A stretch of 45,758 bases of DNA from Candidatus Kuenenia stuttgartensis (GTDB lineage Bacteria; Planctomycetota; Planctomycetia; Planctomycetales; Planctomycetaceae), in contig CAMAVB010000032.1 in NCBI GenBank assembly GCA_945861465.1, forward strand, positions 1 to 45,758, in the 5' to 3' direction. Positions 19,882 through 41,570 of this stretch are shown piece by piece; position 1 is the first letter of the stretch; the number at the start of each line of letters is the position of its first letter. Made by a program: the position numbers and the translations under genes. The notes under the pieces are model-generated. The model saw only the letters and a list, made by a program, of their open reading frames with translations, was not told the DNA's origin and did not search any database.

Positions 19882-22800
19882 ATGCTGTTCACAAAATGGA
19901 TTGCGAGCCTGCTGCGACGGACCCGTAATAGTCAGTCTCGTCGACGAGTTTCGGGTTTCACGAAATCCCCTGTGGAACGACTTGAGAGTCGCACGCTTCT
20001 GGCCGGGGTTCTTGGCCTGAGTATCAATCAGTCCTCCGAAACCAGGTTGTCGTTTACAAGTTCGCCGAACTCGGTTGCCACGAATGGTGTGACGTCATTC
20101 GACGTGTCGCCGAATGATGGGTGGACGTTTTCAGTTTCTGGTGGACCGCAGTCGATCAACTTATCCGTGAAGCGGAATGGTGGATCGTATTACGATCCAT
20201 ACTGGACCCTCGATTTGCAGCCTCCCGCCGGGCAGGGTCTTGGGCCGGGGACATTTCTTGACACGTCGGCCGACTACTATACCGGCTCTGATGCGACACT
20301 GTCCTTCAGAAACAGTAACTCCGGATACTACACCGGCTTCACGGGTGAGTTCAGCATTCTGGAGTTCGATGTGAATGTCGATGGCAGCGTCGCCCGATTG
20401 TCGGTGGACTTTACCGAGCGATACAACGCTGCGGCCCAGACAACGATCGGAAAGTTTAGATACGACTCCAGCCCGATCGTCAGCGAATCTGCTGGTCCGA
20501 CGGCGACAGAACTGACGGTCAGCCGTGACGGCGATCTCAGTCAACCGCAGGTTGTGCAACTCACCAGTGGTGATCCTCAGGCCGCCGGAATTCCATCTGA
20601 AGTGACGATCCCCGTTGGTGAAGCCAACATTGTCGTATCGATCGACGTCAAGGACAATCAATTTGCGAACGACGCCACGCGAGTGAAATTTCTGGCGACT
20701 GCCCTTGGCTGGCAGGCCGCAACACAGAATCTGATCGTTCAGGATGATGACGGTCCGCCAGCACTGGAGGCGGTCATACTTCAGGACAGAATTTCTGAAT
20801 CTGCGGGCTCCCATGCGGCGGTAATGGTTGTGACGCGGAACACAGATAACTCAATTCCCATGACGGTCACACTGGCGAATTCCGACCCAACTGAAATCAG
20901 CGTTATCACAACAGTCGTGATTCCGGCTGGGCAGTCGTCGATTCTCGTCCCCATCGATGCGGTCGATGACAATTTCCTGGATGGCACCAGAACGGTGACG
21001 GTCACCGCATCTTCGGGCAGCCTGCTTCGAGCAGTCGCAACCCTGCAGGTGACGGACGATGCCACTGATGAAGTGCCCGCGATCACTCTGGAAGTGAGTC
21101 GGGGCAGTGTCAATGAATCGGATGGACCCCGAGCAGCCCAGTTGATCATTCGCCACAATGTCGAAACCACCTATGCCATTAGTATCGATCTTACCTCAGC
21201 TTTCCCCGATCGCCTTGTCCCGATGGCCACACAGGTATCTATTCCGGCAGGACAGCGGGAAATCCGCGTCGACCTGAAGGCCATTGACGATCTGATTGCC
21301 TGGTCGAACACGGATGTGCTGATCACGGCCTCGTTCTCTCAATATCAGTACTCTTATCCCTATCCCGATTCGCCTGCCCTTCGCAGCAGCAGCGTCGTTG
21401 TTCACGTCACAGACAATGACGTGGCAGCCGTCGATATTTCCATTGATCCGCTGAGTTCTTGGTTTGCATTCGACAGCACACCGGGAAGCTGGGTTGGTCA
21501 GGGACTCCGGAACTACTATGTCTCCCCCGTGAAGGGATGGACATTTTCAGCAGGCGGCGGCAACAGGGTTCTGCAATTCGGGATCAATGAGATTCCTGCA
21601 CCCGGTACGTATTTTGGCGGAAACTGGACGCTCGAACTCGCTGCACCCGCCGGACGAACTCTGATTCCCGGTCTCTTTGAAAACGCGGCTCGCTATCCGT
21701 TTCAGAATGCGAATCAGCCGGGTTTGACGCTGAGTGGCAATGGCCGAGGCAACAATACAAATTCCGGATTCTTTAACATCCTGGATGCGAAATACACCGC
21801 CAACGGGGCGCCCGATTTTGTTGACGTGACGTTTACTCAATTCGACGAACAGAATCCGGCCAACTGGACAAAAGGCGAACTGCTGTATCGAAAAACCCCG
21901 ATTTACGAACTTTACGAAGCCCCCTCGCGCGAAGGCAGGACGCTGACTGTTCGCCGGAACACTCCCGCCTCGGATGGACCGCTGGTGGTGACACTCCACA
22001 ATCCTGATCCCGACCTGATCGGGATGCCTGAGACCGTCACCATTCCGAGCGGTGCGTCCAGCGTCAGTGTGCCATTCACCGTTAAAGACAACCAAACGCT
22101 GGACGGCATGCGCACAGTGTCCGTTTCCGCAACAGCGAATGATTATCAGCCGGGCGAAGATTCCGCGAACCTCATCGATGACGAGATCGCGGGAATTGTT
22201 GCCGCCGGCGGATTTGACAACCTCACGAGCATCGCAGAAGGATCTCAGATCAACGTGCCGATCACATTGAGCGTGAAGCCCACATCCGATGTGGTTGTGA
22301 GCGCTGGCCTCAACAGTTCCGGACGAGTGACACTGGACCGCCAGGAGTTCGTTTTCACACCGGACAACTGGTCAACACCTCAGGAACTGATCGTTTCAGC
22401 CACGGAAAATCCATACTGGGATGGCAATGCCGTTCGGGCATTATCATTGAGTGTTGTCAGTGACAGATCAGACATGGCATTCCGGTCAGTGAATGCACTC
22501 CGCAGACAATTTACAGTGACCGATAATGAACCTGCCGTACCTTCACTGACCGCCAGTTCCAGGACATTGAATGGACATCCGTTGCTGCAATGGACAGCAG
22601 TTCCGGGTGCTCGGTCGTATGAAGTGTGGATCAACAACGTGACCACGGGCAAACGTCAATATGAATTGGTGACATCGACGGTCAGTTCCTACCGCCCTGA
22701 CGCTGCATTCGCTGCCGGAACCTACCGCGTCTGGATTCGTGTCACGATGCCGGACGGGGTTTCGCCGTGGGGTGTGGCTCGCGATTTTCAGGTTCTGGCA

Positions 22801-24123
22801 ATACCCGTATGGCTGAATGTGCCAGGCGTCGACTCGCAGGCAGAATCCATTCGCTGGAGCCCCATTGCGGGTTCCAGCAGCTACGAAGTCTGGATTACAA
22901 ATCTCGACACGAAGGCTCGGGAGTATTTTGAGACCAATCTCAGTTCACCTCAGACGTCGGTGCCCGTCAGGCTGCCACCCGCAAACTATGCCGCGTTTGT
23001 TCGTGGAAAAGCGGGCAACGTGTGGACCGACTGGTCTGATCGTTTTCTGTTCACAGTACTCCGCCCGCCTGTCGGAAATGTCATAGCCTCGGTGGCGGAC
23101 GATACCCTGAACGCATCGTGGTCAGCGGTCAATGGGGCAACGTCCTACGAAGTTCTGGTTCGCAATGGTGCGGGAACTCTGGTCTCTCGCTTCGCCAACA
23201 TCAACAGCACGTCATACCGGGGCCCTGCATCAAACGGGGTCAAGCCGCTCACTCCCGGAGTCTACGGGCTGACGGTTGTGGCGTATTCCGGCGCGCGGGC
23301 GATGACTGTTCCGGGTGCTGCGAAGATCCTGTACGTCACGCAGGCACCAAATGTCAGGTTGACAACAACTTTCGCAGAATGGGATGCCATTCCTGGTGCA
23401 TCAGGATACAGTTTTCGCATCAGAAAAGAAGGTGAGGCATCGGCCACATGGGTCGAAACGACTTCGACAAAGGTCGTGTTCAGTACGCCGCTGGGTCCCG
23501 GAAGATTCGTGATCGAAGTTCGCAGTCACTACCCCGACGGAACGGTCAGCAATACATCAATGAACTCCGTTGAACTCTTTCGTCCGGCAGTCGAACTACT
23601 GCCGTTCCCGGCGGAGACGGCAGATGCAACTCCCGTAATCTCCTGGAATTCTGTGGTCTGGGCAGAAAAATACTCGGTGCAGATCGTCAGAGCTGGAGAA
23701 GTCAGCCCTGCGTTTCAGGCCGACGTCAGCGGAACATCGCTGTTGCGTGTGTCTGCGCCTCTGCCAAATGGCACCTACCGAGTCTTCGTGCAGGCGCTTG
23801 CAACCGATGGTTCTCGCAGTGAACCCGGCAATGGTAAATCGCTTCGCATCGGGGCTCCCCCGGCAACGCTGACGTATTCGGCAGGAGTGCTGGCCTGGAG
23901 TTCGGTGGCGGATGCGACATCGTACGATCTCTGGATCAACTCTGATGGACCGCCCGAAAAAATTCAGATCGTGCGCGAGCCAAATCTAACGTCTCAATCG
24001 TACAGTCTTTCCGCATCGCTTCCGAAAGGCAGATACAGCGTCTGGGTTCGAGTGAAACGCGCGGAGGCCGGTGCCGTTTACGAAGGGATCTGGAGTTCCA
24101 GACTGGCGATTGAGATTACCTGA
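19882..24123 (+). CDS. Giant surface protein with Calx-beta-like and FN3-like repeats (LEPR-XLL-type N-terminus)
   Basis: This 1413-residue protein has a basic N-terminus and the planctomycete sorting motif RLESRTLLAG (about 33-42), a variant of LEPR-XLL, so it is probably exported. Residues about 48-195 and 515-675 are two copies of an unnamed module (GWTFS..., WTL-L-PAG-L-PG-F, SG-F-IL, a terminal FT strand). Calx-beta-like repeats occupy about 195-510 and 675-880, each with ESAGP-x-T/A-LTV-R and I-VKDNQ-DG motifs that often bind calcium. From about 885 to the end are roughly six FN3-like domains of the pattern W-VPGA-SYEVWI-N and YRVWIR. There is no catalytic domain. GGGA lies 5 nt before the ATG. 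It is probably an adhesin or cell-envelope scaffold. Confidence 0.8.
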   Translation: MLFTKWIASLLRRTRNSQSRRRVSGFTKSPVERLESRTLLAGVLGLSINQSSETRLSFTSSPNSVATNGVTSFDVSPNDGWTFSVSGGPQSINLSVKRNGGSYYDPYWTLDLQPPAGQGLGPGTFLDTSADYYTGSDATLSFRNSNSGYYTGFTGEFSILEFDVNVDGSVARLSVDFTERYNAAAQTTIGKFRYDSSPIVSESAGPTATELTVSRDGDLSQPQVVQLTSGDPQAAGIPSEVTIPVGEANIVVSIDVKDNQFANDATRVKFLATALGWQAATQNLIVQDDDGPPALEAVILQDRISESAGSHAAVMVVTRNTDNSIPMTVTLANSDPTEISVITTVVIPAGQSSILVPIDAVDDNFLDGTRTVTVTASSGSLLRAVATLQVTDDATDEVPAITLEVSRGSVNESDGPRAAQLIIRHNVETTYAISIDLTSAFPDRLVPMATQVSIPAGQREIRVDLKAIDDLIAWSNTDVLITASFSQYQYSYPYPDSPALRSSSVVVHVTDNDVAAVDISIDPLSSWFAFDSTPGSWVGQGLRNYYVSPVKGWTFSAGGGNRVLQFGINEIPAPGTYFGGNWTLELAAPAGRTLIPGLFENAARYPFQNANQPGLTLSGNGRGNNTNSGFFNILDAKYTANGAPDFVDVTFTQFDEQNPANWTKGELLYRKTPIYELYEAPSREGRTLTVRRNTPASDGPLVVTLHNPDPDLIGMPETVTIPSGASSVSVPFTVKDNQTLDGMRTVSVSATANDYQPGEDSANLIDDEIAGIVAAGGFDNLTSIAEGSQINVPITLSVKPTSDVVVSAGLNSSGRVTLDRQEFVFTPDNWSTPQELIVSATENPYWDGNAVRALSLSVVSDRSDMAFRSVNALRRQFTVTDNEPAVPSLTASSRTLNGHPLLQWTAVPGARSYEVWINNVTTGKRQYELVTSTVSSYRPDAAFAAGTYRVWIRVTMPDGVSPWGVARDFQVLAIPVWLNVPGVDSQAESIRWSPIAGSSSYEVWITNLDTKAREYFETNLSSPQTSVPVRLPPANYAAFVRGKAGNVWTDWSDRFLFTVLRPPVGNVIASVADDTLNASWSAVNGATSYEVLVRNGAGTLVSRFANINSTSYRGPASNGVKPLTPGVYGLTVVAYSGARAMTVPGAAKILYVTQAPNVRLTTTFAEWDAIPGASGYSFRIRKEGEASATWVETTSTKVVFSTPLGPGRFVIEVRSHYPDGTVSNTSMNSVELFRPAVELLPFPAETADATPVISWNSVVWAEKYSVQIVRAGEVSPAFQADVSGTSLLRVSAPLPNGTYRVFVQALATDGSRSEPGNGKSLRIGAPPATLTYSAGVLAWSSVADATSYDLWINSDGPPEKIQIVREPNLTSQSYSLSASLPKGRYSVWVRVKRAEAGAVYEGIWSSRLAIEIT

Positions 24124-24769: not shown

Positions 24770-27700
24770 TCAGCTACTGAGTCTTGAGCGGAGTTGCAAG
24801 CGGTACTGTTCATCCTGCCGCGAGACAAACATGCCTCTCTGCTTCATTGCTGAGAGGACATCGCAGGCCTCTTGCCACCAGATTCGCGCTTCGTCGGTGT
24901 CTTGCTGTTCCGTCGTGGTCGCCAGCCTCCAGAAACTCACCCAAAGGTCGCGTTGCCAGCTGGCGTTTCCTGGGTCAGTCGCCGCCAGCCGCTGTCGAAT
25001 TTCCAGACTCGCCCGGTAGGCCACCAGAGCGGCCGTCAGGTCTCCCTGCGCGCTGAGCATGTCGCCTATCTTCCCCTGGCTGACCGACAGGTCGCGTTGC
25101 AAGCCGAGGTTCAGTGGGTCGGTCGCCGCCAACTGCTGGCGGATTTCCAGACTTGCCCAGTAGATCGCCATCGCGGCGTTCAGGTCCCCCTGCCTGCTGA
25201 GCACATCGCCTGTCTTTCCCTGGCTGACCGACAGGTCGTGTTGCCAACCGGCGTTCACCGGGTCGGTCGCGGCCAGCCTCTCTCGAATTTCCAGACATGT
25301 TCGGTAGGTCGCCAACGCGGCGTTCAGGTCCCCCTGCGCGCTGCGCACATCTCCAATCTTTTCCTGGCTGACCGACAGATCGCGTTGCCATCCGGTGTTC
25401 CTCGGGTCGGCCTCCGCCAGCCGCTGGCGGATTTCCAGACTCGCGTGGTATGCCTCAAGTGCGGCGTTCAAGTCCCCCTGCGCGCTGAGCACGTCGCCTA
25501 CTTTGTTATGGGCGACCGACAGGTCGCGTTGCCAGCCAGCGTTCCCCGGATCGGTCGCTGCCAGCCGCTGACGAATCTCCAGACTTGCCCGGTAAGCCGC
25601 CAGCGCGGGAGTCAGGTCCCTCTGTGCTCTGAGCACGCTTCCGATGTTGTCATGGCTGACCGACAGGTCGCGTTGCCGGTCGGCGTTCCCCCGGTCGGCC
25701 GCTGCCAGCCGCTGACGGATTTCCAGACTTGCCCGGAAGGCCACCAGCGCGGAGTTCAAGTCCCCCTGCGCGCTGAGCACGTGACCGATGTTGTCCTGAC
25801 TGATCGACAGGTCGCGCTGCAGACCAGTGTTCCCCCAGTCGGTCACCGCCAGCCGCTGACGGCTTTCCAGACTTGCCCGATAAGCCGTCAACGCAGCGGT
25901 CGGGTGTCCCTGCGCGTTCAGTACGTCGCCTATCTTTTCCCGGCTGACCGACAGGTCGCGTTGCCAGTCGGCGTTCCCCGGATCAGCCGCCGCCAGCCGC
26001 TCGAAGATCTCGTGACTCGCCCGATAGGCCACCAGCGCCGCAGTCAGATCCCGCTTCGCGCTGAGCACGTCACCTATTTTTTCCTGGCTCACCGACAGGT
26101 CAAATTGCCAGTCGATATTCCCTGGGTCGGTCGCCGACAGTTGCTCGAAGATCTTGTGACTCGCCCGATAGGCCACCAGCGCCGCAGTCAGATCCCGCTT
26201 GGCGCTGAGCACATTGCCTATATTGTTATGGCTGACCGACAGGTCGCGCTGCAAGTCGGCGTTGCCCGGATCGGCCGCCGCCAACCGCCGACTGATTTCC
26301 AGACTCGCCCGGTAGGCCGCCAGTGCGCCGGTCAGATCCCCCTGCGCGCTGAGCACGTTCCCGATGTTGTCCTGACTGACCGACATGTCGCGTTGCCGCT
26401 CGGCGTTCCCCGGGTCCGCCGCCGCCAGCCGCTGGCTGCACGCCACTGCGGCTCGAGCCAGAATACCCGCATCGGTCACACGACCAAGATCGTGGAGAGG
26501 CTGGCTGAGCCACTGCCCGACGTGCATCGCGCTGGGATCGTCTGCGCTCATGCTTAGCAATGCGTAGTCCCGCAACGGTTCCACTTCCCACGATGAAGTG
26601 CCCAGACTGGCAGATCCCGCGAATGACTCGGCCCTGCGAAGCACGTACTGCCGGATCTGCGTGCGGCGCTGTTCCAGTATTTTCGGTGAGATGCGCGCTC
26701 GCGCAACTTCCTGGACGATTCGATGCATGCGGACCAGGTTCTCGCCTGCACTTCGGGTCCACAATCGCAGTCCAGTCAATCGCCATTCCAGATCCCGCCA
26801 TGGATCGACATCTCCGGGCCGTGCTGCGAAAACCTGCGGGAAGTCCGCTGCTACCAATTCGCAGAGCCAGGGGAGTGCGACGGCATCGGGGGAAAGCAGC
26901 GCTGCATACTCGATGACGCGTAATTCGGCCATGCTGAGTCCGGCCAGCGTTGGCTCCAGGAGCTGACCGATCAGCTTCTGCGAGTGCGCGCTCAACTGGA
27001 CCGCGCGGTCGGCACTCGTAGCCGTGAGCGCCGCAAACACGCCTGCGGACTCCAGCCCTGATAGATACTGGCAGTACGCTATCTCTGGATGCTTCCAGAG
27101 GTAAACGGCGACGACTTCAATGGCGAGCGTGTGGCAGCCCAGGAACCTCGCGAGCCGCAAGGCTGCGTTCCATTCTTCGTCGCCCTGCAGCGCCCGGTGT
27201 CGGTTCAGCAATTCGAGAGCATCGTGCTCAGGGAGCGGCTGAAGTTCCAGGCACTCTATGGCGGAGTCAGCAATCTGTTGTTGATCTATGCGTGTGGTCA
27301 CCAGCACATGCAGTCGGTCGGTCGCGGGAAGCACCAAGGAGCGGAGCGGTGGCTGCAGCAACTCGACATGTTCGACGTTTTCAAGGACCAGGAGCGCTCG
27401 CCCACTTTGTTCGAGCACCGTTCGCACTCGGGCGGCGGCCAGGTCGGGGTCCTTCTGCTCAAACTCATTGAATGCCAGTCCCAGATCGGCTGCCAAACGG
27501 GTCATGACGACTCGCAGATCGGTCAGCCCGGCAGCATCGACCAGATATCGCCCGCCGGGATAATCGTCGGCGAAGGCCTGAGAATAGAAAAATGCGAGGG
27601 CGGTTCTGCCGATGCCGCGAATTCCCTGCACGGCGGTGACGGCCGCGATCTTTCCTTGCAACAACTTTGCGCGCAGCCGGGCCAGTTCGGCATGACGGCC

Positions 27701-28714
27701 AACGAATCGGTCGCTGGCTCTCGGAACAGTGTGCCTGGATTCTCCGGCGCGGCGGGCTCGCGCCAGTCGTTCGCAAAGCTGCTGATCGAGACTTCGCAGT
27801 CGCTGCCGGATTTCGCTTTGTCCCAGCGCTCGAATTCCATGCGGTCGCCATTGTCGGACATCGAGGTACAATCGACGCTGCAGGTCCAACCGTTGCATCA
27901 GATCGGTCTGCCACTCATTCGCACGCATTGTCGCAGGACCGTCGAGGGCTGGCACCGAGACAACGTAGATGGGAACGATCGATACTCCCGGCAGCTGTCG
28001 GTGGGTTTCGTGGTTTCGATAGAATTGCCATTCCTTTCGGCAGTACGGGCTGCGGAAATACTCTTCCGACATCACCGCCAGCATCAGCTTCGAGGCGAGC
28101 ATGCCCTGCAGGTTTCGGTGCTGCCAGTCATCTAATTCGCGGATCTCGTGGTGATTGAAGAAGACTCGCAACGGTGTCGGCGTGAGCTCGGCATGTGCGG
28201 CCCGGATGGCCTTAACCAGGGCCGTGACCCAGGCGTCAGGCTGATCGTCTTGATGGGCGTAGCTGATGAACAGGTCCCATCCCAGTTTGTTGAGAAATCG
28301 TTTGGCGATGGAACTAATCGGGCGATCATCGTTGCAGGCTTCGGCCATGATCTCGGGCTCGCTCAGCCAGCAATAGGCCGGGTTTGCGTCAATCGTGCTG
28401 CGCGTGCCGGAACCGGTCAGGGCGACGTCGAACAGTTCGATGATGTACTCAGTCTGCTCGCCGGTGCTGCGGGAGACTTCGGTGTACTCCAGATGTTCAA
28501 GCGGTGCCGATGCGACGAGCACATCCCGGCCTTCGTGGAGTCCCAGCTCTTCGCCAATTTCGCGAATGAGACATTCGCGGAATGATTCGTGGTCTTGTTT
28601 ATGGCCGCCAACGAAACCGTATGACTTCGAGCCTTCGTCCCACCGGGCCAGCCACAGAGTCTGGCTTTCAGCTTCGCGGCGAATCAGGGCAATCGAGGCG
28701 ATGGATTTGTGCAT
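24770..28714 (-). CDS. Nudix-TIR-STAND (NB-ARC-like)-TPR fusion, putative immune receptor
   Basis: This 1314-residue multidomain protein starts at ATG 28714, with GGA 6 nt upstream; an ATG at 28720 is equally in frame. In order: a Nudix hydrolase domain (about 1-135) with an intact Nudix box at 37-59 (GGHKQDHE..., then REIGEELGL, fitting Gx5Ex7REUxEExGU); a TIR domain (about 146-260) with DLFISYAHQDD, DDWQHRNLQGMLASKLMLAV and SPYCRKEWQF, in which Glu228 is the candidate NADase residue; a STAND/NB-ARC-like ATPase from about 337 (DRFVGRHAEL), P-loop GIRGIGRT (364-371) with Arg for Lys, Walker B LLVLEN with Glu for Asp, and VLVTTR; a winged-helix-like segment ending VRMHRIVQEV; and at least ten 48-residue TPR-like units from about 757. 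TIR-STAND-TPR proteins are known conflict systems. A Nudix addition suggests processing of a nucleotide such as ADP-ribose, which is inference. Confidence 0.85.
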   Translation of the reverse strand: MHKSIASIALIRREAESQTLWLARWDEGSKSYGFVGGHKQDHESFRECLIREIGEELGLHEGRDVLVASAPLEHLEYTEVSRSTGEQTEYIIELFDVALTGSGTRSTIDANPAYCWLSEPEIMAEACNDDRPISSIAKRFLNKLGWDLFISYAHQDDQPDAWVTALVKAIRAAHAELTPTPLRVFFNHHEIRELDDWQHRNLQGMLASKLMLAVMSEEYFRSPYCRKEWQFYRNHETHRQLPGVSIVPIYVVSVPALDGPATMRANEWQTDLMQRLDLQRRLYLDVRQWRPHGIRALGQSEIRQRLRSLDQQLCERLARARRAGESRHTVPRASDRFVGRHAELARLRAKLLQGKIAAVTAVQGIRGIGRTALAFFYSQAFADDYPGGRYLVDAAGLTDLRVVMTRLAADLGLAFNEFEQKDPDLAAARVRTVLEQSGRALLVLENVEHVELLQPPLRSLVLPATDRLHVLVTTRIDQQQIADSAIECLELQPLPEHDALELLNRHRALQGDEEWNAALRLARFLGCHTLAIEVVAVYLWKHPEIAYCQYLSGLESAGVFAALTATSADRAVQLSAHSQKLIGQLLEPTLAGLSMAELRVIEYAALLSPDAVALPWLCELVAADFPQVFAARPGDVDPWRDLEWRLTGLRLWTRSAGENLVRMHRIVQEVARARISPKILEQRRTQIRQYVLRRAESFAGSASLGTSSWEVEPLRDYALLSMSADDPSAMHVGQWLSQPLHDLGRVTDAGILARAAVACSQRLAAADPGNAERQRDMSVSQDNIGNVLSAQGDLTGALAAYRASLEISRRLAAADPGNADLQRDLSVSHNNIGNVLSAKRDLTAALVAYRASHKIFEQLSATDPGNIDWQFDLSVSQEKIGDVLSAKRDLTAALVAYRASHEIFERLAAADPGNADWQRDLSVSREKIGDVLNAQGHPTAALTAYRASLESRQRLAVTDWGNTGLQRDLSISQDNIGHVLSAQGDLNSALVAFRASLEIRQRLAAADRGNADRQRDLSVSHDNIGSVLRAQRDLTPALAAYRASLEIRQRLAATDPGNAGWQRDLSVAHNKVGDVLSAQGDLNAALEAYHASLEIRQRLAEADPRNTGWQRDLSVSQEKIGDVRSAQGDLNAALATYRTCLEIRERLAATDPVNAGWQHDLSVSQGKTGDVLSRQGDLNAAMAIYWASLEIRQQLAATDPLNLGLQRDLSVSQGKIGDMLSAQGDLTAALVAYRASLEIRQRLAATDPGNASWQRDLWVSFWRLATTTEQQDTDEARIWWQEACDVLSAMKQRGMFVSRQDEQYRLQLRSRLSS
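24958..26445. repeat. 144-bp tandem repeat array encoding TPR units
   Basis: Ten or more copies with an exact 144-bp period lie inside the Nudix-TIR-STAND gene; the motif TTCCAGACT.GCCCGG recurs near 25001, 25145, 25289, 25433, 25577, 25721, 25865 and 26297, with diverged forms at 26009 and 26153. Each unit encodes 48 residues of the pattern RLAATDPGNA-WQRDLSVS, then IGDVLSAQGDL-AAL-AYRASLEI. No unit is frameshifted, so the array is under coding selection. Long readings on the opposite strand are shadows of it. Confidence 0.9.
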
Positions 28715-28779
28715 GAACATTCCATTTGTGTTTAGGAAACCGAGGTGAACACTATACCATGATTGTGTCACGTGCATTA

Positions 28780-28903
28780 AGGCGAGCGGCAGAAATGAAT
28801 TTACCGGTACGACGGACTTCCAGTCCGTCGCATGGTGCTACTCGACGGACTGGAAGTCCGTCGTACAAATTGCGAATGGTAAGTTCTATCCTGCCGCTCG
28901 CCT
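28780..28903. repeat. Nested inverted-repeat element upstream of the Nudix-TIR gene
   Basis: An outer pair (AGGCGAGCGGCAG at 28780-28792; CTGCCGCTCGCCT at 28891-28903) is perfect over 13 bp. An inner pair, arms 28807-28830 and 28843-28866, is perfect over 24 bp and begins GTACGACGGACTTCCAGTCC. The design (short outer TIR plus long inner palindrome) mirrors the MITE elements elsewhere in the window. It lies in the gap between two divergent genes, so it is not a terminator, and may affect either promoter. Confidence 0.75.
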
Positions 28904-30226: not shown

Positions 30227-32170
30227 ATGTGGTTCGTGCGTGGTTTGTGGTGCGTCGCCTTCCTTTCATGCGGGACTGACGCGATTGCCCAGTCTCCTGT
30301 CATTGCAGCGACAGAGAATCTGGTTGCGGATGGAATTCCGGTGATTCCGGCAGAGATCGCTGAATCGGTGCGTCGCTATACGGAATCCCGTTCAGCGTCG
30401 TTTGTCGATTGGCATCCGGTCAGTCGGGAGATGCTGATTTCGACTCGTTTCGGCAACACACCGCAGTTGCATCTCGTGAAGATGCCAGGCGGTGCGCGTC
30501 GTCAGCTGACATTCTTCGCTGAACCCGTCGGTAATGCCTCATGGGACCCTCAGGACGGCAGCTATTTTGTTTTCAGCCGGGACACAGGAGGGAATGAGTT
30601 TGGGCAACTGCACCGCTACGATGTTGCCAGCGGTGCCGTGACGCTGCTGACTGATGGAGGACGATCACAGAACGGCGGTATCGTCTGGAATCATGCAAAG
30701 GACGGATTCCTCTATTCGACGACTCGCCGCAACGGTGCGGATCGTGACCTGTGGATCATGGATCCTCTGAAGCCTGAAGAAAGCATAGCGATTGCTGAAC
30801 TGTCGGGAGGCGGCTGGGCCGGCCTGGACTGGTCACCGGATGATTCTCAGATCGTGGCAATGGAAGCGATCTCCGTCAATAAGACAAACCTCTGGATGAT
30901 CGATGCCGCAACTGGAGTAAAGACGTCCATTACCGATTTGACGGCTCAGGTCGCGTATGGCGGGGCCGAGTTCAGCAGGGACGGAAAGGGTCTGTACGTC
31001 ACGCTGGACAAAGACAATGAGTTCCAGCGTCTGGCTTTGATGGATCTTGCTTCCGGTGGCGTAACGTACCTGACGAGCGACATCGCATGGGATGTCGAAG
31101 GCTTTGAATTATCACCGGACGGTGCGACAATTGCTTTTCTGACCAACGAAGCCGGGATCTCCCGCGCGTACCTGATGGACACGGTCTCGCGCAAAATTAC
31201 TCCGATTCAGGGCCTTCCAACTGGAGTGATCGGCAGTGCGAGCTGGCATGAGAACGGTGAGGATATTGCATTCACCGTCAATTCTGCGAAGTCCACATCG
31301 GACATCTACTCGCTCAACGTCAAGTCCGGCGAAGTCGAGCGATGGACTGAAAGTGAACTGGGTGGCCTGATGGACGGTGAACTGGTGGAACCTGAGCTGA
31401 TTCGCTGGAAGAGTTTTGACGGTCTTGAGATTACCGGGTTCCTGTATCCGGCGGCAAAGAAGTTTGAAGGGCAGCGTCCGGTGATCATCAACATCCACGG
31501 CGGTCCGGAGGGACAGTCGCAGCCTGTGTTTCAGGGACGCAATAACTACTTCCTGAACGAACTGGGAGTGGCCATCATCTATCCCAACGTGCGCGGGTCC
31601 ACGGGCTATGGGAAGACTTACGTCGCCATGGACAATGGCATGAAACGTGAGGATTCGGTGAAGGACATCGGAGCCCTGCTGGACTGGATCGGGACGCAGC
31701 CGCAGCTCGACGCCGACCGAATCATGGTGACCGGCGGAAGTTACGGCGGATATATGACTCTGGCCTGCGCGACGCATTTTAACGACCGGCTGCGATGCTC
31801 GCTGGATGTCGTCGGGATCTCTCATTTCGGCACGTTTCTGAAGAATACAGAGAGCTATCGCCGTGACCTTCGCCGAGTCGAATACGGGGACGAACGAGAT
31901 CCGCAGATGTCGTCCTTCTTCGAACAGATCGCCCCGCTCAACAATGTGAAAAAGATCTCAAAGCCGCTGTTTGTCGTCCAGGGCGGCAACGATCCTCGAG
32001 TTCCGATGTCTGAAGCCGAACAGATGGTCGCGCGAGTCAAATCGAACGGCAGCCCGGTCTGGTACCTGATGGCCAAAGACGAAGGCCACGGCTTCCGCAA
32101 AAAGAGCAACGCCGATTTCCAGTTCTACGCCACAGTGCTCTTTGTCAGACAGCATCTGCTGGGAGATTGA
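30227..32170 (+). CDS. Secreted S9 family serine peptidase (prolyl oligopeptidase/DPP-like)
   Basis: This 647-residue exported peptidase starts at ATG 30227, 9 nt after GAGGAG; the signal peptide is MWFVRGLWCVAFLSCGTDAI, cut near AIAQS. Residues about 60-380 form a WD40/TolB-like propeller (repeats such as DWSPDDSQIVAMEA, FELSPDGATIAFL). The C-terminal alpha/beta-hydrolase domain (about 390-647) has NIHGGPEGQ, NVRGSTGYGK, GGSYGGYMTLA with nucleophile Ser about 504, GGNDPRVP with Asp about 588 and DEGHGF with His about 620. The triad is complete. Family members cleave short peptides, often after proline. It ends 26 bp inside the convergent nucleotidyltransferase gene, and so supplies that gene's missing tail region. 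Confidence 0.9.
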   Translation: MWFVRGLWCVAFLSCGTDAIAQSPVIAATENLVADGIPVIPAEIAESVRRYTESRSASFVDWHPVSREMLISTRFGNTPQLHLVKMPGGARRQLTFFAEPVGNASWDPQDGSYFVFSRDTGGNEFGQLHRYDVASGAVTLLTDGGRSQNGGIVWNHAKDGFLYSTTRRNGADRDLWIMDPLKPEESIAIAELSGGGWAGLDWSPDDSQIVAMEAISVNKTNLWMIDAATGVKTSITDLTAQVAYGGAEFSRDGKGLYVTLDKDNEFQRLALMDLASGGVTYLTSDIAWDVEGFELSPDGATIAFLTNEAGISRAYLMDTVSRKITPIQGLPTGVIGSASWHENGEDIAFTVNSAKSTSDIYSLNVKSGEVERWTESELGGLMDGELVEPELIRWKSFDGLEITGFLYPAAKKFEGQRPVIINIHGGPEGQSQPVFQGRNNYFLNELGVAIIYPNVRGSTGYGKTYVAMDNGMKREDSVKDIGALLDWIGTQPQLDADRIMVTGGSYGGYMTLACATHFNDRLRCSLDVVGISHFGTFLKNTESYRRDLRRVEYGDERDPQMSSFFEQIAPLNNVKKISKPLFVVQGGNDPRVPMSEAEQMVARVKSNGSPVWYLMAKDEGHGFRKKSNADFQFYATVLFVRQHLLGD

Positions 32171-32465
32171 GCGCCCCAAACAAACGCCGTCGATTCGATC
32201 TCCAATGAGCTTCACTCTGGCGGCAGCTTAAGCCGGGAACTTCGAGCATCACCTGCGGATTAAACTCAAAGTCCGAACCGAGCGCATTCAGTAATCGACG
32301 AATTTTTCCTGCCTCAAACACTACGACAATATCCGCATCTTTTGTAGAACGAGGAATGCTGTACACATTGGTCGCAAGAGCCCCGACGAGGACATACTTT
32401 ACCGAAAGTGATTCGAGTGCCACCAGTGTTCGTCGAACTGCATCAAAGCTGTTCATTGACTGCAT
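32145..32465 (-). pseudogene. C-terminally truncated DUF6036-type nucleotidyltransferase
   Basis: Residues 1-75 of this ~106-residue reading look like a minimal nucleotidyltransferase: FDAVRRTLVALESLSVKYVL, then VGALATNVYSIPRSTKDADI with the D-A-D metal motif. After NPQVMLEV the sequence turns into unrelated codons that overlap the convergent S9 peptidase gene for its last 26 bp. Normal family members are about 150-180 residues, so the C-terminal half is lost. It overlaps the upstream partner gene by 23 bp. If the family acts like MNT/HEPN-type modules, this copy is probably inactive. Confidence 0.6.
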
Positions 32466-32721
32466 CCAATAGGCGGTAGCGATCCCCGTCGTCGATCCGT
32501 CTGGCGATTTCAAGTCGGCGAAAAATTTCGTGATCGACCTGTTTTTCATTGTACTCAGGGTAACGCATGCGAATCCCGGAACGCATCATCATCAACCCCA
32601 AATCAAAGAGTTCCGGCCCGGCCAGAAGCCTTTGGCTAATGGACAATTGCCGCGCCTGCTCAAGTTTAGAGAGACAGATTTCATCCTGAACAGCTTTTTC
32701 AGTGGCATCGATAGCCTTCAT
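32443..32721 (-). CDS. Small helical partner protein of the nucleotidyltransferase
   Basis: This 92-residue protein (start at ATG 32721; other in-frame ATGs upstream) is mostly helical and charged: KLEQARQLSISQRLLAGPEL, then MMRSGIRMRYPEYNEKQVDHEI and FRRLEIARRI. The S.EQRLLAG.ELF..............R..FP pattern occurs in planctomycete proteins encoded next to DUF6036 nucleotidyltransferases. It overlaps the truncated nucleotidyltransferase, so the two were translated as a pair. Function unknown. Confidence 0.6.
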   Translation of the reverse strand: MKAIDATEKAVQDEICLSKLEQARQLSISQRLLAGPELFDLGLMMMRSGIRMRYPEYNEKQVDHEIFRRLEIARRIDDGDRYRLLDAVNEQL

Positions 32722-33611
32722 AGTTTGGTGTCTCATTTGGCGTGGCGAATTCGGAGACGATCGCCTGATCTTCGAAAGCGGCCTCATCGAAATGTGTCGG
32801 AAAGTATATTACGCTAAACGTCCGCAATCTCAAGAATGATCCCGATGATCCGTCCTTCGACTGAGTGCCGGTCGTCTCCTGTGGAGAGCAGCCCAAAGCA
32901 CTCACAGGAATGTAAGTCACATCTTCAAAGAACCCTTCGGCAGCCTGTCTCTCTTCGCATTCAGAAACAGAGTTCCCTCGTACTCGTGCAACTTATGGTT
33001 CGCAATGGGATCAGTTCGCGGTGAACTCGGTCGATGAGTCTGCCGAGTTTACGGGCGTTGTTGAACAGCGTTTCGCCGCGATGATCGCGGAATTTACCCC
33101 CGGACTGACGACGATCCGCAGCAGACCGTCAGCGTTCCTGTCTGGAATTCTCAAAATCCCCGTCTAGCAGATTTACCGAACATTTTTGCAATCTCTGCGT
33201 CTCCTGTTTACGTATTTACAATCGCAGTTGGGAAAATCAGCAGGATCTGCAGAATGTGGTCCGACACTTTGCGGCAGAGAACTGTTCGTTTGAACAGGAT
33301 TGTGTGTCGAACTTGGCCTTGTTGTGGGCTCTTCGGCAGCAATTTTGGCAATTCTTGGTGAACATGTGCGAATCCTGCCGGAGAAACCGTGCGGAACGGG
33401 GTTCATTTTCTAGTCGGGCAATTGAACGGCTTGATTCAGCAAGTTCGATAAGGGAATGGCCCGGTATTTGCCACACAAAGTATTAGCAATCGGGACTGCC
33501 CACAAACAGAGGCGGGTCGTTCCACGAACTGATGCATCAGAATCATGGTCCGAAGCGTAAACAATGCGATTCGCCGGTTTCGGCGGCAAACGAAATGCAT
33601 GGGAGCTAGTC
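32722..33611. other. Long gap upstream of the sigma factor, no intact gene
   Basis: About 890 nt without an intact gene. At about 32911-33166 one plus-strand frame reads without a stop and ends in [19 protein letters not shown], which could be the tail of a lost gene, but it has no start or known family. The GGGAG site of the sigma factor lies at 33601-33605. Confidence 0.35.
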
Positions 33612-39441: not shown

Positions 39442-40044
39442 TCACATCGTCAGTTCAAGAAAGTCACGATATGCCCAGTCGTCGATCGTGGAACTCGTTG
39501 CGCCCAGGAATTTGCGTAATTCAAGCAGTCGGTACTGACGGCGAATCACCGAGTCCAGCCCGTAGAGGCGTATTGTAATCTCCGCTCGTTCCTGCTCATG
39601 CAGCGAGGAAGTCGGGTTTGGTGAGATGGCACCGTTGGTATAGTCGAACACAAAATAGCGAAGAAATCGATAGTCTGGTTCATCGGGAGCGATGAGCGCC
39701 TCTTCCCATTTCTCTTTCTTCTCTAGCTGACAGTATTCGCAGCAGTAGTACAGATTGCTCCATTTAAAATCGAGGTGCGCGAATTCATCCAGGCCCTTCG
39801 GACGGAAATGTTCGACCGGAACCTTTGATCGATCTTCAAGCGGGAACGCATCGCAAAATGAACAGTGCCCCTGTGTCATTTTATGCAGAATCGGAAGAGC
39901 CCATTGTCGAGCCGTCCTTCCATCAATAGTGTACCAGGCGAAACCACTTCGATTTTGCTCGCGCAGATTGAGCCATTGCCTCGTCCATTTTTCTGAGTTC
40001 TAAACAAACTGAGTCGGAGCAGGAGGTCGTTGCTGCTGCCTCAT
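39442..40044 (-). pseudogene. PtuB-like HNH endonuclease interrupted by an in-frame amber codon
   Basis: The intact frame would be 200 residues, starting at ATG 40044 (4-bp ATGA overlap with the ATPase stop). It reads MRQQQRPPAPTQFV, then TAG at 40000-40002 (codon 15), then NSEKWTRQWLNLREQNRSGF and onward without another stop. The M-R-x-R-P-P-x-P start and the Trp-rich segment after the stop resemble PtuB-type HNH proteins. The HNH core is intact: GHCSFC (Cys61, Cys64), PVEHFRPK (Glu78, His79), NLYYCCEYC (Asn97, Cys102, Cys105). The TAG is one base from CAG (Gln). A shortened protein from ATG 39879 would keep the HNH core but lose 55 residues. Whether it is a mutation, readthrough or a sequence error cannot be told. 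Confidence 0.75.
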
Positions 40045-41417
40045 GGTTCAGCCACCTCAGCCACCATCAGTCGATCCAGTTGTCGAAGTTCACGAGCCAT
40101 CATGTTGGAAAGAGACGCACTGCGGGCGGCGATCACTTCTGCTTTGCTGCGAAGATGGTCAACAGAGTTCCTGCCTTCGATGACATCCTTTCGAATCGAT
40201 CGAAATTCGGCAAGCAGGTGTTCTGTTTCCGGGTCGTACCATTCTTCAATTCCCAGGATGTCCGAAACAACGTCGAGATACGTATCGCCTGGGCTGCACG
40301 GTCTCGGTTTGTCAGCCACGACCTGTCCGTCGGCATTGGCTCGCAGAATATGAATCCACCCGTGATTTACGGATGAAATGACAAACGGAGAATGCGTCGC
40401 AATAAACATCTGCGAGTTTGGGAACAGGATCTGCGCGGCCGGGATCAGTTTTCGCTGCCATGCCGGATGGAGGTGGCTTTCAGGTTCATCGAGCAACAGC
40501 AGCAGTGGTATGTCGAGCGGATTCGGGTGCTCGGGAAACTTCGCGTCAAGCTTGGCGATGCACGACACCAACCAGCCGATGATGGAACGTAATCCGTCGG
40601 GAAGTTCCGCAATCCGCATCGAATCTTTGCCCCAGAAGACCTTGATGTGCAACTCGGGGCTGGGATGGACTTCGAACGCGAACCGTCGTCCCGTCACACT
40701 GGAAATCGCGTTTTCAAGGCGCGACGTGATTGCGACGCCTCGCCCTCCATCACCACCGCGAAGTCGGAGATTCTCCATTGCTGCCGCAAACTTGAGATTT
40801 GACATGCTCTGACAAAGCAAAGTGTCTTCCTTTGCAGACCGGTCAAAGAGCAAGTCCTCGCGTTCTGTGCCAAAACTCAAAGGTTGCATTGCCACAATCT
40901 GCGCATCCATTGCGCGAGACGTACCACGAAACGCAAGAGACAATGATGCTTTGGCTGATTGCATGTCAAAGGCATTGTTTCTGACCCCTCTGCTCTCTCT
41001 CTTTGCGTTGTGGTAAAGAATTCCTTGTTTCGACGCTAACAGTGCCATCCAGAATTCTTCGTGCCCCGCCTCTCCGGCGGGATAAAGGATCATTCCAGAC
41101 TCTGACAACCCTGTCGCCTCAAGCGATCCCCAAATACCGACCTCATCTGCGGCCGACATTTTCAAAAAAGCACAGGCAGAATCGGCAGCTCCACCCAGTC
41201 TGTTTAGCAGCTCTGTTGGATTGCCACATGCGGCAGAGATCAGCGACAGCAGGCGAGTCTTCCCTGTACCATTTTGTCCTGTCAACAGGTGAACTTCTCC
41301 CAACTGCCGCGGACTCGGGGCGGTGCAGTCTCCTTCAGTTGCAGGCACGACCGGGAACTCAATTTCGTGGTCAGCGAAAGGTGCAAATCCTCGAAAGGCG
41401 ACAGCCTGGATGCGCAT
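40041..41417 (-). CDS. PtuA-like AAA ATPase of a Septu-type defence system
   Basis: This 458-residue ABC-type/OLD-like ATPase pairs with the HNH gene. Start ATG 41417 is preferred (MRIQAVAFRGFAPF; GGAA about 9 nt upstream); ATG 41432 and TTG 41435 lie in frame. Walker A is LTGQNGTGKT (about 45-54), the signature-like LPDGLRSIIGWL is at about 273-284, Walker B LLLLLDEPESHLHP (Asp310, Glu311), and the H-loop ATHSPFVIS (His342). The tail is helical. In Septu, PtuA and PtuB together block phage by nuclease action. Similar ATPase-HNH pairs also serve in Ec78-type retrons, but no reverse transcriptase is nearby. Confidence 0.8.
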   Translation of the reverse strand: MRIQAVAFRGFAPFADHEIEFPVVPATEGDCTAPSPRQLGEVHLLTGQNGTGKTRLLSLISAACGNPTELLNRLGGAADSACAFLKMSAADEVGIWGSLEATGLSESGMILYPAGEAGHEEFWMALLASKQGILYHNAKRESRGVRNNAFDMQSAKASLSLAFRGTSRAMDAQIVAMQPLSFGTEREDLLFDRSAKEDTLLCQSMSNLKFAAAMENLRLRGGDGGRGVAITSRLENAISSVTGRRFAFEVHPSPELHIKVFWGKDSMRIAELPDGLRSIIGWLVSCIAKLDAKFPEHPNPLDIPLLLLLDEPESHLHPAWQRKLIPAAQILFPNSQMFIATHSPFVISSVNHGWIHILRANADGQVVADKPRPCSPGDTYLDVVSDILGIEEWYDPETEHLLAEFRSIRKDVIEGRNSVDHLRSKAEVIAARSASLSNMMARELRQLDRLMVAEVAEP

Positions 41418-41570
41418 GATGATGTGTTCCATCAAGTAGGGATTGGGCGCGATGATAAGAGTTTAAGCTGGAACCACGTCCGTTGCCATCGAAACAAATG
41501 TGCAGCGATCAATGTCGGCGTTGACAGGCACTGGCGCTGGTTGAGTTAAACCGAATGATCGCGAATCTCA

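Follow-up and report, generated by a model that had tools for sequence, protein, structure and literature searches.

A predicted Nudix-TIR-STAND-TPR receptor protein in a planctomycete genome and the paired Nudix loci related to it

STAND proteins with repeats sense and oligomerize, clustered TIR domains act, and Nudix enzymes cut diphosphate-linked nucleotides. Thoeris combines a TIR protein that makes a signal with a SLOG/SIR2 or macro-domain effector. The behavior of the TIR, STAND, and Nudix families in conflict systems is described in PMC7159879 and PMC9503650. In the vWA-MoxR ternary conflict systems, Nudix and TIR are among the effector domains directed at NAD or ADP-ribose (Kaur et al., PMC7159879), and a figure legend of PMC10910872 names the TCAD9 domain. 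In plants, the Nudix protein NUDT7 cleaves 2',3'-cAMP/cGMP and suppresses the death mediated by the TIR protein RBA1 (PMC9153377). Phage proteins with an RyR domain degrade or sequester cyclic ADP-ribose (cADPR) signals (PMC13232231). The gene described here lies on a 45,758-nucleotide contig of Candidatus Kuenenia stuttgartensis (CAMAVB010000032.1, assembly GCA_945861465.1), the whole of which is referred to as the window. It encodes Nudix, TIR, NB-ARC-like STAND, and TPR modules, all recognized by Pfam, in one chain of 1314 residues. We put at about one in two the probability that this protein is a STAND-type TIR conflict receptor, similar to nucleotide-binding leucine-rich-repeat (NLR) proteins, in which a nucleotide signal made by the TIR domain would be erased in cis by the Nudix domain.

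The minus-strand frame 24770-28777 is open from end to end as a single open reading frame. The ATG at 28714 is favored as its start because Met1 then aligns with Met1 of the homologs in genomes G145 and G479. Residues 124 to 160 contain no ATG, GTG, or TTG codon, so that the TIR domain could not readily be translated alone. The Nudix, TIR, and STAND parts have similar G+C contents at third codon positions (GC3 of 0.676, 0.676, and 0.679), which exceed those of eight other measured genes of the window (0.55 to 0.65). A first-pass annotation, made from the sequence without database searches, had read this frame as one 1314-residue protein with an exact Nudix box, a TIR domain with Glu228 as the candidate catalytic residue, an NB-ARC-like NTPase, and at least ten TPR units. 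The open frame and the start alignment bear out the single chain; the Nudix pattern, the Pfam TIR_2 match, and ten regular 48-residue units bear out the modules (Table 1), and the architecture recurs in a second genus. The NTPase is likewise over its Pfam cutoff, but it is not canonical, as described below.

The fold assignments of the two N-terminal domains are supported by a predicted structure of residues 1 to 330 (built from 12 rows; mean predicted local distance difference test score [pLDDT], 73), which matches both the Nudix and the TIR folds, as the first-pass annotation had proposed to check. Block means of pLDDT are 83 to 96 over residues 1 to 140 (Nudix) and 44 to 76 over residues 141 to 260 (TIR). 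The top Foldseek match of the model is the diadenosine tetraphosphate (Ap4A) hydrolase of Caenorhabditis elegans (1kt9; E value of 1.8e-7). VIA-align pairs the Nudix part with a MutT protein (Z 14.3; 125 residues; root mean square deviation [rmsd], 2.5) and, tied with the hydrolases among the top matches, with NrtR (Z 14.2; 129 residues; rmsd, 2.7). Many Nudix proteins are tied in this way, and the structural matches therefore single out no substrate. Model residues 144 to 317, from a stretch predicted with low confidence, match the IL-1RAcPb TIR domain (Z 13.0; 142 residues; rmsd, 3.0). Glu is found at the position of Glu228 in all nine aligned TIR-STAND proteins, including that of the window.

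In the X-loop that follows the Nudix box, Pro71 is found at position +12 and Tyr77 at +18, the exact position of the X-loop Pro in the ADP-ribose pyrophosphatase subgroup being presumed here. Among the nine sequences of this Nudix type, which is designated NudB and includes that of the window, the latter position holds Tyr in six, Phe in two, and Ile in the partial sequence from G421. Tyr is of the residue type associated with diadenosine polyphosphates and not with ADP-ribose (PMC5389931). The first-pass annotation had suggested that the Nudix domain could act on the ADP-ribose-type product or its precursor; with Tyr77 at +18 and an Ap4A hydrolase as the best Foldseek match, ADP-ribose is not supported as the substrate and was dropped as a settled assignment.

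The STAND core deviates from its relatives at two key positions, as Arg370 replaces the Walker A Lys and Glu445 replaces the Walker B Asp. Among the nine aligned TIR-STAND proteins, only that of the window has these residues, and the fusion protein of G479 keeps both Lys and Asp. The two replacements place ordinary ATP switching in doubt, and the window copy is not claimed to be an active STAND NTPase. The replacements may mean that the protein hydrolyzes nucleotides weakly, is locked in one state, or has decayed. The DUF7779-like stretch downstream probably represents the winged-helix part of the STAND module. The C-terminal region matches several Pfam TPR families with up to 110 bits, and residues 701 to 1314 align best with themselves when offset by 48 residues. 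The repeat units are 52 to 79% alike in protein and 67 to 85% alike in DNA.

Table 1. Features of the fusion gene and its upstream region, with coordinates in the window
Feature	Coordinates	Strand	Evidence or remark
Nudix-TIR-STAND-TPR gene	24770..28714	-	1314 aa + stop; start matches homologs
Nudix domain (NudB), residues 8-125	28340..28693	-	Pfam NUDIX, E 5.2e-8, 33.4 bits, cutoff 21.1
Exact Nudix box, residues 37-59	28538..28606	-	Pattern GX5EX7REUXEEXGU, matches once
TIR domain, residues 149-257	27944..28270	-	Pfam TIR_2, E 1.7e-13, 51.5 bits, cutoff 28
Glu228 codon, conserved TIR glutamate	28031..28033	-	Glu of YCRKEW
NB-ARC-like STAND NTPase, residues 343-506	27197..27688	-	Pfam NB-ARC, E 1.9e-6, 27.8 bits, cutoff 23.5
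Walker A region GIRGIGRTALA, residues 364-374, Arg370 replaces Lys	27593..27625	-	Lys in 8/8 aligned relatives
Glu445 codon, replaces Walker B Asp	27380..27382	-	Asp in 8/8 aligned relatives
DUF7779-like stretch, residues 593-678	26681..26938	-	Pfam E 3e-4, 21.4 bits, below cutoff 27
Ten 48-residue TPR units, residues 773-1252	24959..26398	-	Pfam TPR families and self-alignment
Palindromic 19-base element and inverted copy	28812..28861	.	Between fusion gene and divergent RDD gene; 2 matches, none in 100 shuffles

The fusion recurs. In 2 of 170 genomes of the same family, those of the window and of G479, one match runs through both Nudix and TIR without a break in the frame; among 294 sampled genomes of the phylum, the window's is the sole one with such a match. 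Matches at E values up to 1e-10, some of them to TIR only, are found in 43 of the 170. G479 belongs to another genus and encodes a second full Nudix-TIR-STAND-TPR chain, in which NUDIX, TIR_2, and TPR are over the Pfam cutoffs and NACHT and NB-ARC are sub-threshold. It shares 34% identity with the window protein over residues 1 to 307 and 32% over the pairwise alignment. The domain order is thus not a single occurrence. The window's own genome has 15 TIR_2 matches, 14 of them over the cutoff, and encodes a TIR-STAND-TPR paralog without Nudix; ten of its other TIR loci gave no Nudix match in BLAST comparisons with the window's domains. Of two scans of genome contigs, that with the Nudix-TIR protein gave no match, and that with a narrow Nudix alignment gave two contigs of one planctomycete metagenome-assembled genome with coordinates equal to those of G145, so that little can be learned from them about rarity beyond the phylum.

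The analysis covered nine NudB loci, eight within the family (including that of the window) and one, G145, outside it. Their recurrent order is a degenerate Nudix partner (designated NudA), NudB, and then TCAD9/TPR-S, TIR, SLOG-like, RyR, or cyclase modules. In G145, G479, and G482, NudA and NudB are followed by a protein with TCAD9 and TPR-S (Pfam). In G479, the fusion protein itself is the NudB, flanked by NudA and TCAD9/TPR-S, and two more TIR genes, one of them TIR-NB-ARC-TPR, begin no farther than about 6.5 kb from the fusion gene. The G463 locus (L099) contains NudA, NudB, a TCAD9-like sequence (tblastn), a frame with TPR-S and RyR, and a TIR-WD40 protein; on its other side are a LysR regulator, a gene that is Cas2-like by sequence inspection (2668 bases from NudA), and Cas1 and Cas9-type genes, and a 24-mer is present 17 times. 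In G439, NudA and NudB lie at a contig end, next to a divergent LysR gene, beyond which is a DUF4062-NB-ARC gene. The NudB of G421 is frame-shifted, and a TPR-S-guanylate cyclase protein comes after it. G517 has a NudB with a C-terminal region that is unnamed by Pfam and was read as SLOG by inspection, a TIR frame, a TrkA_N protein that matches RyR below the threshold, and an integrase-like gene upstream. In G453, NudA-like and NudB domains share one 443-residue chain, and no other module was found at the locus. In the window, NudB is fused to TIR-STAND-TPR and has no cassette partners.

The G482 NudB (L082, 5798-6325) is a Nudix-only protein whose gene is 88 to 97% identical to that of G479 (L078) in 60-base blocks, into the first TIR codons; the letters that follow resemble a TPR unit and end in a stop. 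It is apparently the product of an internal deletion of the TIR-STAND part, and an assembly collapse could also give this arrangement.

NudA of G145, G479, and G482 has no Pfam match. Its profile aligns with that of NudB (hhalign E value of 7.9e-6; probability, 84), and the model of the G479 protein (pLDDT, 86) has 3shd as its best Foldseek match (E value of 8.2e-9) and pairs with 3grn in VIA (Z 15.5; 128 residues; rmsd, 2.1). The NudA box has RA and one Glu in place of RE..EE, which makes a role as a non-catalytic signal reader plausible. NudA profile searches gave a strong match in G145 and weak ones in G029 and G304 in a 392-genome sample of the phylum, and matches in 4 of the 170 family genomes, which are weaker in G439 and G463 than in G479 and G482. 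NudB adjoins NudA in all five of G145, G479, G482, G439, and G463.

NudB was compared with 19 other Nudix loci (L084, L085, L088, and L100-L115), each taken with flanks of up to about 6 kb; 18 of these come from the search of the 170 family genomes and one, G257, from the phylum sample. The first-pass annotation had suggested enrichment near known defense genes as a check. TIR, STAND, or TCAD9/TPR-S modules are found in or near 8 of 9 NudB domains, the exception being G453 and the modules of the window lying in the chain itself, versus 0 of the 19 others (local hidden Markov models [HMMs]; Fisher P of 2.9e-6). Both Glu55 and Glu56 are kept in 9/9 NudB sequences and in 0/19 of the stand-alone relatives. 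In a tree of 27 rows, from which the incomplete G421 sequence was left out, the eight NudB rows fall on one side of a branch with support of 94/83. Two of the stand-alone relatives (L085 and L088) have a degenerate box; the gene immediately downstream of them is photolyase-like by sequence inspection.

Among the described systems, the FxSxx-COOH/VMAP ternary systems have the same TIR-STAND-TPR order (Kaur et al. 2020, PMC7159879). Of the named families, their TIR-AP-ATPase-TPR protein (NF040586 and NF040588) matches the STAND-TPR part best (FxSxx_TPR over residues 330 to 690; E value of 3e-41; 141.8 bits versus a cutoff of 300), and it also gives the best NCBIfam match of the TIR domain (FxsC_Nterm; 3.7e-13; 49.8 bits versus 130). 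Both scores are below the curated cutoffs, and the window protein differs in its N-terminal Nudix domain. The best FxsB match in the window's genome has 25.6 bits versus a cutoff of 370, and such matches are also found in 11 of 14 control genomes. Membership in an FxSxx system was rejected. The NudB loci resemble the ternary systems in having TCAD9 beside NudB in G145, G479, G482, and G463. In contrast to the vWA-MoxR systems, no vWA and no MoxR over the cutoff were found among the scanned neighbors of NudB, and neither the NudA-NudB pair nor the Nudix-TIR-STAND fusion appears in the available text of their description (PMC7159879). A sub-threshold bpMoxR match is found in G444, at a TIR-STAND locus without Nudix.

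The likeness to Thoeris lies in a TIR domain that may make a nucleotide signal and in the SLOG-like and RyR modules of the NudB relatives; unlike Thoeris, the window protein is a single chain with STAND, TPR, and Nudix modules and has no adjoining SLOG, SIR2, or macro-domain partner. Plant receptors with TIR and nucleotide-binding domains, together with NUDT7, offer the same logic, in which a Nudix enzyme removes a TIR-linked nucleotide (PMC9153377). NUDT7 is a separate protein, whereas the Nudix domain of the window acts, if at all, in cis, and no homology of whole systems is claimed. In PADLOC, PDC-S07 and PDC-S66 match the Nudix and TIR parts weakly and with partial coverage, and their models carry no description; TIR-NLR is not among the four families matched at E values up to 1, and the paralog matches it weakly (6.3e-5). 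A literature search limited to passages of mostly open-access papers gave no description of the fusion or of the NudA-NudB cassette. The domain order, for which the first-pass annotation gave no characterized example, appears to be undescribed and is shared with G479; the fusion and the cassette would be new arrangements of modules (Nudix, TIR, STAND, and TPR) whose presence in conflict systems was known.

In the mechanism that we favor, the TPR array would bind a ligand derived from an invader or from stress, and the STAND core would then open or oligomerize and bring the TIR domains together. The TIR domain would convert NAD+ (or nucleic acid) to ADP-ribose, cADPR, or a 2',3'-cyclic nucleotide, and the Nudix domain would hydrolyze this signal and so set its threshold and lifetime, leaving leaky activity harmless. 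In the relatives, the Nudix domain would work beside the degenerate NudA, perhaps a reader, and the TCAD9/TPR-S, SLOG-like, or RyR proteins would probably be signal readers or effectors. An eraser in cis is favored by the NUDT7 precedent, by the phage RyR proteins that act on cADPR, and by the functions of the families; an RyR match adjoins NudB in G463 and, weakly, in G517, which is in keeping with these phage proteins. The proposal of the first-pass annotation that one chain makes and destroys a nucleotide signal is reasonable in this light, the NUDT7 precedent being in trans; ADP-ribose as the substrate is not supported. A role as an immune receptor is supported by the recurrence of the single-chain architecture and by the conflict-type neighborhoods of most close Nudix relatives examined.

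Several observations weigh against this reading. The window gene's own neighborhood is not a clear defense island, and the replaced Walker residues suggest that the STAND switch of this copy may be impaired. The X-loop does not point to ADP-ribose, and the Nudix box is complete in only 4 of 9 NudB sequences (Gly58 is replaced in five, and Glu52 is changed to Lys in G517). The profile search found no NudA match in the window's genome, which also has no TCAD9 match over the cutoff (one weak match, with 20.3 of 40 bits). Within the reach of the loci, no TIR domain was found near NudB in G145, G482, G421, G439, and G453; with G421 pairing NudB with a cyclase, a TIR-made signal would not be the sole possible NudB substrate. 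The contrast between NudB and the other Nudix loci was labeled after inspection, and it involves related rows, flanks of different lengths, local HMMs trained on some of the same loci, and a first search query that contained TIR. No Nudix relative was found in plasmids, phages, or viral contigs: Nudix and NudA alignments gave no relatives in viral contigs, and the Nudix-TIR protein gave none in plasmids and phages. Plasmids also gave no match to the NudB of G145 or to the TCAD9 protein of G479. A TIR-STAND alignment gave one viral TIR-STAND protein (L068), and a TIR-STAND query gave 10 weak plasmid records, none covering 80%.

The same anatomy would serve a two-step effector, in which TIR cleaves NAD+ and Nudix cleaves ADP-ribose (or NAD+) to AMP and phosphoribose-type products, with deeper, irreversible NAD loss and abortive infection. 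Characterized TIR relatives include NADases, the Glu55-Glu56 pair is kept in every NudB, and Nudix and TIR are listed as NAD-directed effectors of the ternary systems (Kaur et al., PMC7159879). However, the X-loop residue is not of the ADP-ribose type, and because NudB also occurs without TIR, beside sensor-type modules (TPR-S and SLOG-like) or a cyclase, signal handling fits better than depletion; we regard the two-step effector as unlikely, though it is the strongest of the alternatives. Somewhat less probable is a Nudix domain that is no enzyme but, as in NrtR, a ligand sensor, which would bind an ADP-ribose-like molecule and so gate TIR or STAND. NrtR scores as well as the hydrolases in the structural comparison, and Nudix sensors of ADP-ribose are discussed for conflict systems (PMC9503650), but the two glutamates, which none of the 19 stand-alone relatives keeps together, are kept in NudB, and NudA, with its degenerate box, is the better candidate for a sensor.

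It is improbable, but less far-fetched than a chance fusion, that the window copy is defunct or repurposed, having inherited its domains from a G479-like system and, standing alone, no longer signaling. The Arg370 and Glu445 replacements, unique among the aligned STANDs, would fit such a copy, as would a genome with no NudA match and no TCAD9 match over the cutoff and surroundings that are not a clear defense island; its 1314-codon frame is nevertheless intact, with an exact Nudix box, the TIR Glu, and unbroken TPR units. The source genome is a 474-contig draft and repeats can mislead assembly, so a chance or artifactual joining of a housekeeping Nudix gene to a TIR-STAND gene has to be considered; the same fusion in G479, the continuous frame, and the like codon make-up of its parts make it very unlikely. 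A cis eraser thus remains the preferred reading. More tentatively, the loci might form an immune-system family built around paired Nudix proteins, with NudA reading the signal, NudB erasing it, and interchangeable makers (TIR-STAND or cyclase) and readers (TPR-S/TCAD9, SLOG-like, or RyR). The window protein would then be the most compact member of this family, a single chain uniting sensor, switch, maker, and eraser, and would correspond in prokaryotes, in cis, to the TIR-NUDT7 circuit of plants.

The fusion gene is flanked by genes for an RDD protein and for a protein without a Pfam family at E values up to 1e-4. The palindrome between the fusion gene and the RDD gene resembles a repetitive extragenic element. 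Elsewhere in the window, two overlapping small frames (32145-32787, minus strand), one with a weak, below-cutoff match to an Rv0078B-related antitoxin and the other nucleotidyltransferase-like by eye, are a possible toxin-antitoxin pair. An AAA_21/AAA_15 ATPase is encoded at 40041-41435 (minus strand); in its text for AAA_21, Pfam refers to a putative AbiEii toxin. A 1413-residue protein (19882-24123, plus strand) has no Pfam match at E values up to 1e-4 and contains repeats that are Calx-beta- and fibronectin-like by eye.

Nudix-less TIR-STAND-TPR genes of the window's genome (L023, 2721-8179) and of G013 (L024, 5772-9944) each adjoin a gene whose product, by eye, is SLOG-like and has hydrophobic stretches; a sub-threshold SLATT_1 match is found only in G013. 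These genes are possible pairs of a TIR-STAND protein and a membrane effector. BLASTP, with an E value of 0.12 at best, does not show the two neighbors to be one family. A broken match had hinted at a remnant of Nudix upstream of the TIR-STAND gene of G444; inspection of the three forward frames by eye showed none.

Immunity based on nucleotide signals has to be switched off again, and bacterial TIR-STAND receptors must in some way keep leaky activity from killing the cells that make them. The Nudix domain in the receptor chain is a directly testable candidate for a host-encoded eraser in cis, in parallel to the control of plant TIR signaling by NUDT7. The NudA-NudB pair marks a gene cassette that may be used to find further systems.

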